Of a stretch of 64,000 nt of DNA, positions 57,742 through 62,752 are shown piece after piece; the stretch's first letter is position 1; each line of letters starts with the position of its first letter. The DNA comes from Leptospiraceae bacterium (GTDB lineage: Bacteria > Spirochaetota > Leptospiria > Leptospirales > Leptospiraceae): assembly GCA_015075105.1 (NCBI GenBank), contig JABTUZ010000001.1, positions 124,001-188,000 on the forward strand. The letters run 5' to 3'. The position numbers were made by a program, and so were the translations under genes. The notes beneath the pieces were generated by a model, which saw nothing but the letters and a program-made list of their open reading frames with translations, was not told the DNA's origin and did no database searches.

Positions 57742-58212
57742 TTGAGAGAAATTGCAGAAGAAACAACCCCAAGTGAGTCTATTGCGGAAGAGACCCAGTT
57801 TTTATCTTTTCTAATCTCTAACGAAGTTTTCGGAGTGGATCTGCTTCGAGTGCATGAGATTTTACGCCTTGTCTATGTTACTAGGATTCCAAATGTAGAT
57901 GAATCTATCATTGGAGTAGTAAATCTTAGGGGAGAAATTATCCCTGTAGTGGATTTGAAGAAAAAATTTGAACAAGGGTTTACATCGATCACTCCTACAG
58001 CTCGATTTATTGTAACAGAAATAGGAACTAAAAGAGTTGGAATTTTAGTAGAGGAAGTTAGACAAGTTATTAAAATTCGGAAAGATTCAATTTCTGAAAT
58101 TACAGACAGTCTGTCCTCAAATTTTAACAATTTAGTGGGTCATGTCGGTAGAAATGAAGGGCGACTTGTTTTATTAATAGAATTAAGTAAAATTATTCAA
58201 CTGGAAGAATAG
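57742..58212 (+). CDS. cheW: Chemotaxis coupling protein CheW
   Basis: The protein has 156 residues and starts with TTG 57742; AAGGTGAG upstream supports it. The CheW fold is clear: FLISNEVFGVDLLRVHEILR, VTRIPNVDESIIGVVNLRGE, IIPVVDLKKKF and RVGILVEEVRQVIKI. CheW links chemoreceptors to CheA at the membrane. It is the first gene of the chemotaxis operon, 12 bases before cheA. Confidence 0.95.
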   Translation: MREIAEETTPSESIAEETQFLSFLISNEVFGVDLLRVHEILRLVYVTRIPNVDESIIGVVNLRGEIIPVVDLKKKFEQGFTSITPTARFIVTEIGTKRVGILVEEVRQVIKIRKDSISEITDSLSSNFNNLVGHVGRNEGRLVLLIELSKIIQLEE

Positions 58213-58224
58213 AAGGAATTTACA

Positions 58225-61200
58225 TTGTCAGGAATTTTAGGCGAATATACAGAGGTCTTTTTAGAAGAGTCAGAAGATCAAATAGAAGAATTGAATTCTA
58301 ATTTATTGATTTTAGAAAAAGATCATAATGACCGGGAAATCATTAACGATATTTTTAGAGCTGCGCACTCCTTAAAAAGTTCCGCTGCTTTTGTCGGGTT
58401 GTACAATCTCTCTGATCTTGCTCATAAGATGGAGAACTTACTTCAGAAAATCAGGGAAGATAAGTTAGAAGTAAATCTTCAGTTGGTAAATCTTTTGTTT
58501 GAGTGTTTTGATTTAATTAAAGAGGTAATTGATTCAGTCGGAAATGGCATAAAAGTGGATACTGACTTTTCAGAGATGATAAAAAAGTTAGAAGATTATG
58601 AATCCGGTTCATCACCTACTGTGGAGAAAAAATCTACTCCAACAACAAATGGAACAGGGAAGCCAACTGAAACCGAAAGGATTTCAAAGGAAGCTCATCA
58701 AATTTCTGTAATCGAACTTGAGCCGGAAGAGGAGAGAGACCTCGAAGAAGAAATCAAGGAAAAGAAAGTCAAAGTTTTTGATATAAGCGTAAAGTTAAAA
58801 TCCGACACTCCGATGAAAGGTCTTAGGTTTGCACTGATCTTGCAGAATTGCAAAGACTCCGGTATAATATTCAAATCCAGCCCTGATGACGAAGAGCTTG
58901 AAAAAGGAACTGATAGAGATTCCATCGAATTTATATTTATTTCAGGAAAAAGCGAAAAAGAAATTCAAGAGTTACTCATCGTTGACATGGTGGAGTCTAT
59001 ACAAATTCAACTAAGAGTGGTTCAATTACCACATCTTGAAAAGCAGGTTGAACACGTAGAGCATCGAAAAGAATTTGCGATTCCAGATAAGGATGTAGAA
59101 GGGAAGTCGGTTGTAAAAAGTATCAAAGTAGCATCAGAAAAATTGGACCACTTGATGAACAATGTCGGAGAATTGGTAATAACAAATTCCGGTTTTCAGA
59201 AAATTTATGATGACTTGATAAAAAATTTTGGTGAAGATTCTCTGTTCGCAGAGTTGAAAAGTAAAATCGACCAAATCAATAGGATTTCAAAAGATTTACA
59301 AACCGGAATCATGAATACTCGGATGGTTCCGATTGGATCAGTGTTTAATAGATTCACTCGTTTGGTTAGAGACCTTTGCATTGAGACAGGGAAAAAAATT
59401 GAATTGGTTTTGCAAGGAGAGAATACGGAATTAGATAAAAAGGTTGTAGATGTAATTGGAGAGCCTTTGATGCATCTGATTCGAAATTCTATAGATCATG
59501 GAATTGAGTCTCCTGAAGAAAGGATAAAAAAAGGAAAACCGGAAACAGGCACGATTCGCTTGAATGCTTTTCAGGGAGGAAACAACATCATGGTAGAGAT
59601 TTCCGATGATGGCAAAGGATTGGATCGAGAAAAAATATTAAATAAAGCTGTTAAAAATGGACTAATAACTTCAGAGGATGGAGCAGGTTTGCCGGATAGT
59701 GAGGTCTATCAATTTATTTTTGCTGCAGGGTTTTCGACTGCAGAAAAAATTACAGATATTTCCGGTCGCGGGGTCGGGATGAATGTAGTGAATAAGCTAA
59801 TTCAAGAGTTCAAAGGGAAAATTATCATCAATTCTATATCCGGTCAGGGAACATCTTTTACTCTTTGTTTCCCTCAAGCACTTGCAATCATCTCTTCCAT
59901 TCTCGTAACTGTGGAAGAAGAAATGTATGCCTTTCCTTTATCGGAAGTTGTAGAAACTATTCGGGTGAATAAAGACCAAATTACTACTTTAGAAGGTCAT
60001 GATATTATTAATTTAAGAGGTGAAGTTCTTCCTATTTATACGTTAAGTGCAATGATTGGATTGAATCCAAATCGAAGTGTCACAGAGGTGCCAATCGTTA
60101 TTGTAAATTATAATTCCAGAAAACTTGGGTTTATTGTAGATGATTTAATTGGCAAACATGAAACAGTTATAAAATCTTTAGATAAGAATTACAAGAATAT
60201 CCAAGGTCTGACAGGAGCTTCTATTATGGGGGATGGTACGATCATCTTGGTCTTGGATGTGCCGGGTCTCGTGGAGATGTCGTCAATTAGAGATTCTCAA
60301 ATAGATACAGAGTTTGGTGCTAAACTTATGAAAAGACTGGGTGCGTCAAAATCTCTCGATATGGATGATTCTGATTCTATTCTAAAAACGCTAAACCCTA
60401 CAAATGTATTCAATGATAAGTTATTAGAAATTCTTTTAAAGGACAAATCTCGTCAAAAAAGAAAGAAGGCAGAGCAGTCAAGAAAACTTATCTCAATAGA
60501 AGAAAGTGTTACAATCTCAAAACCTGATTTTGTGGTAGAGGACTCAATTCAGTCACCGGTTCTAAAGATCGAATCTACAGAAAATGAAAAACCTGTATTA
60601 GAAATTGTAGCGGTAGAGCCAGAAAAAGTTGAGCCTAAAGTTGAAGATGTGGAAAAAGAGAAAGAAAAAGAAATCATTCAAAACTTTAGAGCACAAACTC
60701 AAGAAAGGTTTTCTACAATTCTACCAGAAAGACATATCAATGAGCTTCTTACAAAAGAAGAAACTAAAAAATTAGAGACTATAGTCAATACCGGTATGAT
60801 GAATGCAGGACTTGTTCTTTCTCAATTAGTGGGATCCAATGTAGAATTGTATATTCCTGAAATTTCATTGACTGATAAAGAAGAGCTAATTCAAAAAATT
60901 CCAAATCTTGCGGATCACTACTTTGGTTTAAAAGTTCGTATGAATGGAGACCTTAACGGTAATTTACTTATGATGTTTTCTGAGGAAGTCGGAAAAAAAT
61001 TATCGGATGATCTATTGAAGTCAAAAGAAAACACTCTAACAAAAAAAATATCCGATGACTCAAAGTCGGTGCTTTCCGAGATTTCTAATATTGTTTGTTC
61101 GAGTATTATTAATTCACTTTCCAACAAATCAAAGTCTCAGATCATGCCTTCAGTCCCTGAATTTATTTCAGGCTCATTTAGGGAAGTGCTGGATATAGTG

Positions 61201-61326
61201 AAGCCTGAAAAGACAAGATTTTTAATGATGCATACAGAATTTATTCACGAAGGCGGGAATTTGCTTGGCGATTTACTCTTCCTTCCAGATTTTGACGAAT
61301 TAGTAAAACTTATTTCTAAAATGTAA
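58225..61326 (+). CDS. cheA: Chemotaxis histidine kinase CheA with C-terminal CheC-like domain
   Basis: The protein has 1033 residues, far longer than typical CheA (about 650-700), and starts with TTG 58225 (GAAGGAA upstream). Domains: HPt at about 1-105 (His48 in FRAAHSLKSS); a variable P2-like part; dimerisation domain from about 297; kinase with N-box HLIRNSIDHGIE (417), DDGKGLD and GRGVGMNVV; CheW-like domain about 555-690; a charged linker; and about 842-1033 a CheC/CheX-type domain. The second half of that last domain has S-x3-E-x2-N-x22-P intact (SVLSEISN, then P 23 residues later). The first half keeps N-x22-P (NTGMMNAGLVLSQL) but has lost the Glu. It should phosphorylate CheY and CheB, and may also dephosphorylate CheY. 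Confidence 0.93.
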   Translation: MSGILGEYTEVFLEESEDQIEELNSNLLILEKDHNDREIINDIFRAAHSLKSSAAFVGLYNLSDLAHKMENLLQKIREDKLEVNLQLVNLLFECFDLIKEVIDSVGNGIKVDTDFSEMIKKLEDYESGSSPTVEKKSTPTTNGTGKPTETERISKEAHQISVIELEPEEERDLEEEIKEKKVKVFDISVKLKSDTPMKGLRFALILQNCKDSGIIFKSSPDDEELEKGTDRDSIEFIFISGKSEKEIQELLIVDMVESIQIQLRVVQLPHLEKQVEHVEHRKEFAIPDKDVEGKSVVKSIKVASEKLDHLMNNVGELVITNSGFQKIYDDLIKNFGEDSLFAELKSKIDQINRISKDLQTGIMNTRMVPIGSVFNRFTRLVRDLCIETGKKIELVLQGENTELDKKVVDVIGEPLMHLIRNSIDHGIESPEERIKKGKPETGTIRLNAFQGGNNIMVEISDDGKGLDREKILNKAVKNGLITSEDGAGLPDSEVYQFIFAAGFSTAEKITDISGRGVGMNVVNKLIQEFKGKIIINSISGQGTSFTLCFPQALAIISSILVTVEEEMYAFPLSEVVETIRVNKDQITTLEGHDIINLRGEVLPIYTLSAMIGLNPNRSVTEVPIVIVNYNSRKLGFIVDDLIGKHETVIKSLDKNYKNIQGLTGASIMGDGTIILVLDVPGLVEMSSIRDSQIDTEFGAKLMKRLGASKSLDMDDSDSILKTLNPTNVFNDKLLEILLKDKSRQKRKKAEQSRKLISIEESVTISKPDFVVEDSIQSPVLKIESTENEKPVLEIVAVEPEKVEPKVEDVEKEKEKEIIQNFRAQTQERFSTILPERHINELLTKEETKKLETIVNTGMMNAGLVLSQLVGSNVELYIPEISLTDKEELIQKIPNLADHYFGLKVRMNGDLNGNLLMMFSEEVGKKLSDDLLKSKENTLTKKISDDSKSVLSEISNIVCSSIINSLSNKSKSQIMPSVPEFISGSFREVLDIVKPEKTRFLMMHTEFIHEGGNLLGDLLFLPDFDELVKLISKM

Positions 61327-62387
61327 TGCTTTCTTCAAATTCAAAAATTAAAATTCTAATCGTCGATGATTCTGCTTTGGTTAGAACGATTATTTCCGAT
61401 CTGATCAAAAATGAACTGGACATGGAAATTGTAGCAACGGGGAAAACCGGTACAGAATGTGTTGAGCTTGCTATGAAACTTCAACCCGATGTGATCACCT
61501 TGGATATTGAGATGCCTGTCATGGATGGGTTGACAGCTCTCGAAGAAATGAAAAAAAGAAATATAAAAATCCCAGTCATTATGATGTCTGTTTTAACCCA
61601 GCACGGGGCAGAGGCTACATTCAAAGCCTTAGAGCTTGGTGCAATTGACTTTGTACCAAAACCATCTTCCGGGATGAGGTTGGAGCTTGGAGAAATGGGG
61701 GATTTGTTGAAAAGTAAAATTCGCGGATATTTCTTTCGAGACAAAAAACAGGAAATAACCGTAGAAAAGAAAATTTCGGGTTTTTCTACCCCAAGGAAAA
61801 AAGAAAAAATTAGAGCAATAGGGATTGGAACTTCAACAGGAGGCCCGAACGCACTCCAGATTTTATTTAAAAGTATCCCTAAAAATTTTCATTTACCAAT
61901 TTTTATAGTTCAACACATGCCCCCCGGATTTACTAAGGCTTTTGCTTCGAGGCTAAATTCCATATCGGAAATACAAGTAAAGGAAGCTGCCCAAGGGGAC
62001 ATAGTTCAACCGGGTTGTGCGTATATAGCTGCCGGGGATCACCACATGAAACTAGAAAAGACTGAAACAAATATTTCAATTGAATTAGATAGGGGAGAGC
62101 CTGTCAATGGACATAGACCGTCGATAGATGTTACTTTTGACAGCTTAAAGTCCTTTTATGGAGCTTCTTTAGTCGGTATAATTATGACGGGTATGGGTAG
62201 AGATGGAGCTGAGTCGATTAAATCGATCCATGATATTGGTGGGGCGACAATTGCGCAAGATGAAAGTACATCGGTAGTGTTTGGAATGAATAAGCAGGCA
62301 ATAGATATTGGGGCAATTGATTGTGTTGTGCCCGTTGAAGCAATAGTTCAGAATATGATTAGATTTATAGAAGAAAGAGGAATATAA
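61326..62387 (+). CDS. cheB: Protein-glutamate methylesterase CheB
   Basis: The protein has 353 residues. Its start shares one base with the stop of cheA. The receiver domain (1-125) has the acidic pair in IVDDSALVR and phospho-acceptor Asp60 in VITLDIEMPVMDG. The C-terminal esterase has GIGTSTGGPNALQ (Ser nucleophile), FIVQHMPPGFTKAFASRLN (His) and IIMTGMGRDGAE (Asp). CheB removes methyl groups from chemoreceptors. The partner methyltransferase CheR is not in this window. Confidence 0.96.
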   Translation: MLSSNSKIKILIVDDSALVRTIISDLIKNELDMEIVATGKTGTECVELAMKLQPDVITLDIEMPVMDGLTALEEMKKRNIKIPVIMMSVLTQHGAEATFKALELGAIDFVPKPSSGMRLELGEMGDLLKSKIRGYFFRDKKQEITVEKKISGFSTPRKKEKIRAIGIGTSTGGPNALQILFKSIPKNFHLPIFIVQHMPPGFTKAFASRLNSISEIQVKEAAQGDIVQPGCAYIAAGDHHMKLEKTETNISIELDRGEPVNGHRPSIDVTFDSLKSFYGASLVGIIMTGMGRDGAESIKSIHDIGGATIAQDESTSVVFGMNKQAIDIGAIDCVVPVEAIVQNMIRFIEERGI

Positions 62388-62389
62388 AA

Positions 62390-62752
62390 ATGGCCAGAAT
62401 ACTTGTAGTGGATGATGCAAAATTCATGCGGACTTTAGTTAAAGACGCTCTTACCGCAGCAGGCCATGAAATAGCCGGTGAAGCTGAATATGGAAATATT
62501 GCAATTGATCAGTACAAAACTTTAAAACCAGATCTGGTTACTATGGATATTACCATGCGAGAAAAAGATGGGATCGAGGCAGCAAGAGAAATATTAAAAA
62601 TGGACCCAAAAGCAAAAGTAATCATGGTCACTGCACTCGGACAAGAAGATCTTCTTGCAAAAGCTATTAAAATGGGAGTAAAGGATTTTGTTGTGAAACC
62701 TTTTCCTCCTGAAAGATTGCAACAGGCCGCTGCGAAGGCTCTCGGTATCTGA
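62390..62752 (+). CDS. cheY: Chemotaxis response regulator CheY
   Basis: The protein has 120 residues, a stand-alone receiver. The acidic pair is in ILVVDDAKFMR, the phospho-acceptor is Asp53 in LVTMDITMREKDG, the Thr is in VIMVTALGQ, and the Lys is in DFVVKPFPPERL. In this location it is the likely motor-binding CheY, and the probable target of the CheC-like domain of CheA. It lies 2 bases after cheB. Confidence 0.95.
   Translation: MARILVVDDAKFMRTLVKDALTAAGHEIAGEAEYGNIAIDQYKTLKPDLVTMDITMREKDGIEAAREILKMDPKAKVIMVTALGQEDLLAKAIKMGVKDFVVKPFPPERLQQAAAKALGI

Follow-up and report, generated by a model that had tools for sequence, protein, structure and literature searches.

The cheA gene in the window analysed here, a stretch of 64,000 nucleotides from a Leptospiraceae genome (3.42 Mb in four contigs), encodes a five-domain CheA to whose C-terminus a domain of CheC fold with one intact active site is fused. 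We think it probable that the product is a canonical CheA kinase carrying a CheC-fold phosphatase as its sixth domain, held on a flexible tether. The original prediction, made by reading the sequence alone, had assigned a CheC-like domain to the end of this protein, and both profiles and a fold model placed such a domain there (about residues 836–1033). Fusions of CheC/CheX with F1 CheAs in class Leptospirae were described in 2023 by Berry, Andrianova and Zhulin, who proposed a dual kinase/phosphatase function (PMC10782961); the prediction was therefore correct, but for Leptospirae the fusion and its likely role were already in print. In the literature that we searched, which took in few subscription papers, no experimental work on the fusion came to light.

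The fused gene (58225..61326, + strand) is one ORF of 1033 aa with a TTG start, and every domain scored above its Pfam cut-off: P1 (Hpt, residues 7–97), P2 (184–262), the P3 dimerisation domain (298–364), the P4 HATPase (414–551) and the CheW-like P5 (559–684) follow one another in order, and then come a linker (about residues 691–835; 60295..60729, +) and the CheC-type domain (residues 836–1033; 60730..61323, +). Upstream lies cheW, encoding a coupling protein of 156 aa (57742..58212, +; Pfam CheW, 7.7e-31), and downstream are cheB (61326..62387, +; receiver plus methylesterase), the start codon of which overlaps the cheA stop, and cheY (62390..62752, +; Pfam Response_reg, 2.6e-27), a single receiver and the likely substrate, in which the phospho-acceptor Asp (in VTMD) and the Lys (in VVKP) are intact. 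The order cheW-cheA/C-cheB-cheY is conserved in nine families (f1, f2, f12, f23, f30, f33, f37, f39 and f44). Chemosensory classes F1 and F8 are known from Leptospirae (PMC7666581), and the fusion has been assigned to F1 (PMC10782961). It is improbable that the CheC domain is also made separately from an internal start, as there is no ATG, GTG or TTG codon in cheA residues 810–857. A frameshift or an assembly join of two genes was rejected, because the fused frame is intact in every Leptospiraceae genome searched as well as in about 74 genomes of the phylum.

The identity of the C-terminal domain was settled by profiles and by fold. With the C-terminal 218 residues of CheA, the stronger of two Pfam matches was to CheX (PF13690; 1.5e-9, 38.2 bits against a cut-off of 27) and the other was to CheC (PF04509; 1.1e-5, 25.7 bits against a cut-off of 22), while the NCBIfam model CheC_Thtogales was matched over its full length by residues 842–1033 (4.7e-23), although the 82 bits fell below its 250-bit equivalog cut-off. 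Thermotoga maritima CheC in the PDB was matched with E-values of 5e-10 (single sequence) and 5e-24 (profile). An AlphaFold2 model of the domain, built with 22 related sequences (pLDDT 84, pTM 0.83), has two pseudo-symmetric halves with the long CheC helices at domain residues 9–34 and 109–134. When this model was compared with the PDB by Foldseek, the best match was T. maritima CheC (1xkr; 7e-17, TM 0.83/0.81), the CheC-CheD complex (2f9z) came next, and FliY (4hyn; 2e-14), FliM (about 1e-10 and weaker) and CheX (only 3e-8, TM 0.56, far behind CheC) followed; all PDB matches with E-values of 1e-3 or less were of CheC/FliY/FliM/CheX type. Thus the profile searches and structural model that the original prediction had put forward as its checks both upheld it, the CheC/CheX matches being significant in Pfam, NCBIfam and the PDB, and the model having CheC topology with CheC itself as its top match. 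Curated profile cut-offs exceeded, a pseudo-symmetric alpha/beta CheC fold and, in the second half, a catalytic ExxN followed by its Pro place the domain in the CheC/CheX/FliY superfamily (Pfam clan CL0355), and within it topology and length are those of CheC rather than CheX. A reading as CheX was rejected on the poorer structural match, and one as a FliM or FliY C-ring protein on the weaker fold matches and the presence of a CheA core in the same frame.

The active-site pattern S-x3-E-x2-N-x22-P had been predicted to fit the second half of the domain exactly, and it does (S948-x3-E952-x2-N955-x22-P978; 61066..61158, +), but the numbering given then was off by three: the Glu and Asn are at 952 and 955, not at about 949–952. 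As also predicted, the first half (residues 852–878; 60778..60858, +) keeps N855-x22-P878 and has lost its Glu, position 852 being Thr. The pattern occurs once in the whole CheA protein; as 2000 shuffled versions of the 198-aa domain included 7 that also contained it, the motif alone is just suggestive, and it is the profile matches that settle identity. A chance motif was rejected, since profiles, model and conservation concur: in an alignment of 64 fused CheAs, picked by profile and not by motif, E952, N955 and P978 are each present in 64/64, including one copy with a shortened loop. In the first half, by contrast, most copies have Ser, Val, Leu, Thr or Ala in place of the Glu, and the six fused copies that do have Glu there have it in contexts such as LKEWLRQ or of WLRQGN type, with no proper ExxN, whereas this Glu is kept in 11 of 11 free CheCs. 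The fused domain therefore departs from the CheC subfamily in not having a Glu/Asn pair in both halves, and, judged by the alignment, every fused copy has a degenerate first half-site. As free CheCs keep the Glu of this site, the domain appears to have turned into a one-site enzyme after fusion, with a CheX-like single site on a CheC-like fold. The invariance of Glu, Asn and Pro in the 64 proteins fits retained catalysis. Separately, we observed a fusion-specific conserved residue eight positions past the catalytic Asn: Asn963 (61111–61113) is present in 64/64 fused copies and in only 1 of 11 free CheCs, nine of which have Gly.

Conservation along the chain is uneven. Compared with a relative in the same family (L110), P1 is 85%, P3–P5 77%, the linker 32% and the CheC domain 75% identical, so that at this distance the CheC domain and the kinase core are constrained about equally; for a more distant relative (L112) the identities are 38% in the CheC domain and 57% in the kinase core. 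In a model of residues 545–1033 of low overall confidence (pLDDT 66, pTM 0.41), most of the linker had a pLDDT below 50, a helix being modelled at about 807–832, and this low confidence is consistent with a flexible tether. Two other fused CheAs are unusually long (L085 and L086, in genomes G036 and G038; 1351 and 1362 aa), with post-CheW tails about 300 aa longer than in other fused CheAs.

The family survey that had been suggested with the prediction found the fusion throughout Leptospirales, in 8/8 Leptospiraceae genomes, with which relatives the window genome groups, and in 19/22 of a sister family. The three sister-family exceptions comprise two genomes (G012 and G029) without any CheA dimerisation domain and one (G022) of 78% completeness. 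When 392 genomes of the phylum were searched with a profile, about 74 had, among the matches listed, one that fell within a frame of at least 850 aa; about 37 of the 74 do not belong to the class of the window and represent at least 10 Spirochaetota families (f8, f12, f18, f23, f27, f30, f33, f37, f39 and f44). The loci that we fetched from these families have the CheA core and CheC domain in one frame, and their motif takes the form SALxE; Pfam independently found P1–P5 in seven representatives and CheC above its cut-off in four of these. One locus (L154, genome G185), at a contig end, has a single in-frame TGA within the match but is otherwise a typical fused CheA; the TGA is probably a sequence error or the mark of a decayed copy.

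We built a kinase-core tree of 39 fused and 26 unfused CheAs, leaving out the CheC domain, by a quick method; some branches are long. All fused CheAs fell on one side of one branch (SH-aLRT 94; 95 in an earlier tree with fewer unfused rows), and these kinase cores fit one ancient fusion event. A tree of the CheC domain concurs, except that one long-branch fused copy (L066) was placed with free CheCs; in the kinase-core tree this copy falls among the fused CheAs. A scan of named genomes with the pattern SV[LM]xE[LI][TSA]NIV, which misses SALxE forms, gave a single free-standing CheC among its loci, that of Clostridium weizhouense (L125), 24 bases behind cheA, and it is plausible that this arrangement is the gene order that preceded fusion. 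The fusion is genuine and of long standing, and selection on it is strong.

In dephosphorylating CheY-P, members of the CheC/CheX/FliY group insert an Asn, which orients water, together with an acidic residue, which forms a salt bridge with the receiver Lys (PMC3035606). From this mechanism, together with the intact receiver residues of CheY, it follows that the simplest reading is one bifunctional protein by which CheY-P is both produced and removed at the array, the phosphatase activity of the fused domain being inferred from its conserved site. P1 would phosphorylate CheY bound at P2, and the tethered CheC domain would then bind CheY-P much as in the CheX-CheY complex, with Asn955 inserted so as to place a water molecule for attack on the acyl phosphate, and with Glu952 in a salt bridge with the receiver Lys, so that the phosphate would be removed at or near the array. 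As kinase and phosphatase are in one chain, the source and sink of CheY-P would be co-located in a 1:1 ratio, which would shorten signal lifetime and make the gradients of CheY-P along a long cell less steep. The CheC domain of Leptospirae would probably act without CheD.

The fused domain is not the sole candidate phosphatase of the window genome, as there are two free CheX proteins with intact ExxN (L093:5118-5576, − strand, and L092:3591-4091, + strand; 152 and 166 aa). These may be the main CheY-P phosphatases, and the fused domain need not be. One of the two cheX genes lies upstream of a FapA gene. Family searches gave four CheA dimerisation-domain matches in this genome, and a second chemosensory cluster (L090, C1:694000-706500) contains cheY, a gene for a STAS protein, an unfused cheA, cheR and cheD, along with a 553-aa ORF, presumably a receptor, and what we take to be cheW-like and cheB-like ORFs.

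The likeliest rival, which we nevertheless consider improbable, is that the domain is an adaptation module that senses CheY-P and controls the receptor deamidase CheD at the array, catalysis being secondary, as in Bacillus subtilis, where CheC, the best studied of its kind, has just 6% of the activity of FliY and matters mainly through CheD binding (PMC3513319). CheD was found in 54 of 61 related genomes, with two copies in the window genome (C1:698244 and C2:1194454), and in two families (f8 and f27) alone cheD stands directly after cheA/C; the fused domains there (L069, L070 and L144) keep the D-M signature of helix alpha2' seen in T. maritima CheC. A docking Asp also occurs, as DYMQSIL, in f12, f23 and f30. 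Against this, the docking helix (modelled by AlphaFold2 at domain residues 150–155; 61159..61203, +) lacks the Asp of the DM[LI]xA[IL] signature in the window protein and in all other Leptospirae copies aligned, and cheD is not part of their operon; in addition, Glu, Asn and Pro are invariant, which is more than CheD binding alone would need. In B. subtilis CheC, Asp149 lies at the CheD interface, and with Lys in its place CheD is bound less strongly while the phosphatase is not weakened (PMC3513319); the column in question would, by way of the T. maritima CheC alignment, be equivalent to this residue. Several free spirochaete CheCs also lack the docking Asp. The CheD partnership was probably lost in the Leptospirae lineage. 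As to where cheD genes do occur, one copy in the window genome is an orphan (L094:4305-4811, on C2), outside any che cluster in the 9 kb read and adjoining a same-strand ORF of 283 aa. In another genome (G073, L144) cheA/C is flanked by a cheX-like gene on one side and cheD-cheR-cheB on the other, a single operon holding the two types of phosphatase as well as CheD. A further genome (G049; L069 and L070) has two paralogous fused CheAs, and behind each of them come cheD and a small gene of CheX-like type.

The conserved motif could also reflect conserved binding of CheY-P without turnover, and a catalytically silent domain might keep CheY-P near the kinase or report its level to CheA. FliM is a non-catalytic protein of CheC-type fold, and it is among the structural matches to the fused domain, of which one of two half-sites is degenerate in every fused copy; yet a non-catalytic role has no obvious need for a second-half ExxN that is present in 64/64, and we regard a silent domain as improbable, somewhat more so than the adaptation module. 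That the domain mainly serves another receiver, e.g., that of CheB, whose gene at most loci comes right after cheA/C and in the window shares bases with the cheA stop, or a CheY-like protein of another cluster such as L090, is very improbable, as the characterised substrates of CheC, CheX and FliY are CheY-P (PMC3513319, PMC3035606) and nearly every locus has cheY close to the fused gene, even some in which cheB does not adjoin it.

Returning to the make-and-remove kinase, and with slightly more doubt than conviction, we speculate that one ancient fusion, predating the split of Leptospirae from at least 10 other Spirochaetota families, made the adaptation partner of CheD into an array-anchored, one-site CheY-P phosphatase, so that the kinase and its off-switch became obligatorily stoichiometric and co-localised, with CheD coupling left in a few lineages (those with cheA/C-cheD operons) and lost in Leptospirae. 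A covalent kinase-phosphatase CheA would fix both the ratio and the place of CheY phosphorylation and dephosphorylation, and would be a natural experiment on why Escherichia coli puts CheZ at the array. The survey of the phylum shows the design to be old and common in a large part of Spirochaetota, and not a curiosity of Leptospira. The series from two-site free CheC, through fused one-site domains with cheD adjoining, to fused domains that have no CheD sets the phosphatase role of CheC apart from its CheD role and makes both testable.

The fusions of Berry et al. (2023) have the same architecture and come from the same class as the window CheA, but Leptospirae alone are named there; what is new here is the spread to at least 10 further Spirochaetota families, the evidence for one old origin, the loss of the first site in all fused copies and the graded loss of the CheD link. 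T. maritima CheC (1xkr; 2f9z with CheD) matches the fused domain over the full length of the fold and likewise has an intact second half-site, but it is free-standing and has Glu in both halves, whereas the fused domain is without the first-half Glu and, in Leptospirae, without the docking Asp. CheX of T. maritima and Borrelia burgdorferi (1xko, 3hzh) resembles the fused domain in its single functional ExxN in the second half, but is free-standing and a poorer structural match (TM 0.56). Rhodobacter sphaeroides CheA3 is reportedly a bifunctional kinase-phosphatase (Porter et al. 2008, cited in PMC10782961), and like the fused CheA as we read it would join kinase-pathway and phosphatase activity; to our knowledge it has no CheC domain and is an unrelated solution. 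In E. coli, a short form of CheA (CheA-short) brings CheZ to the array, and there too a CheY-P phosphatase is localised to the array by attachment to CheA, but its fold is unrelated and the attachment is non-covalent.
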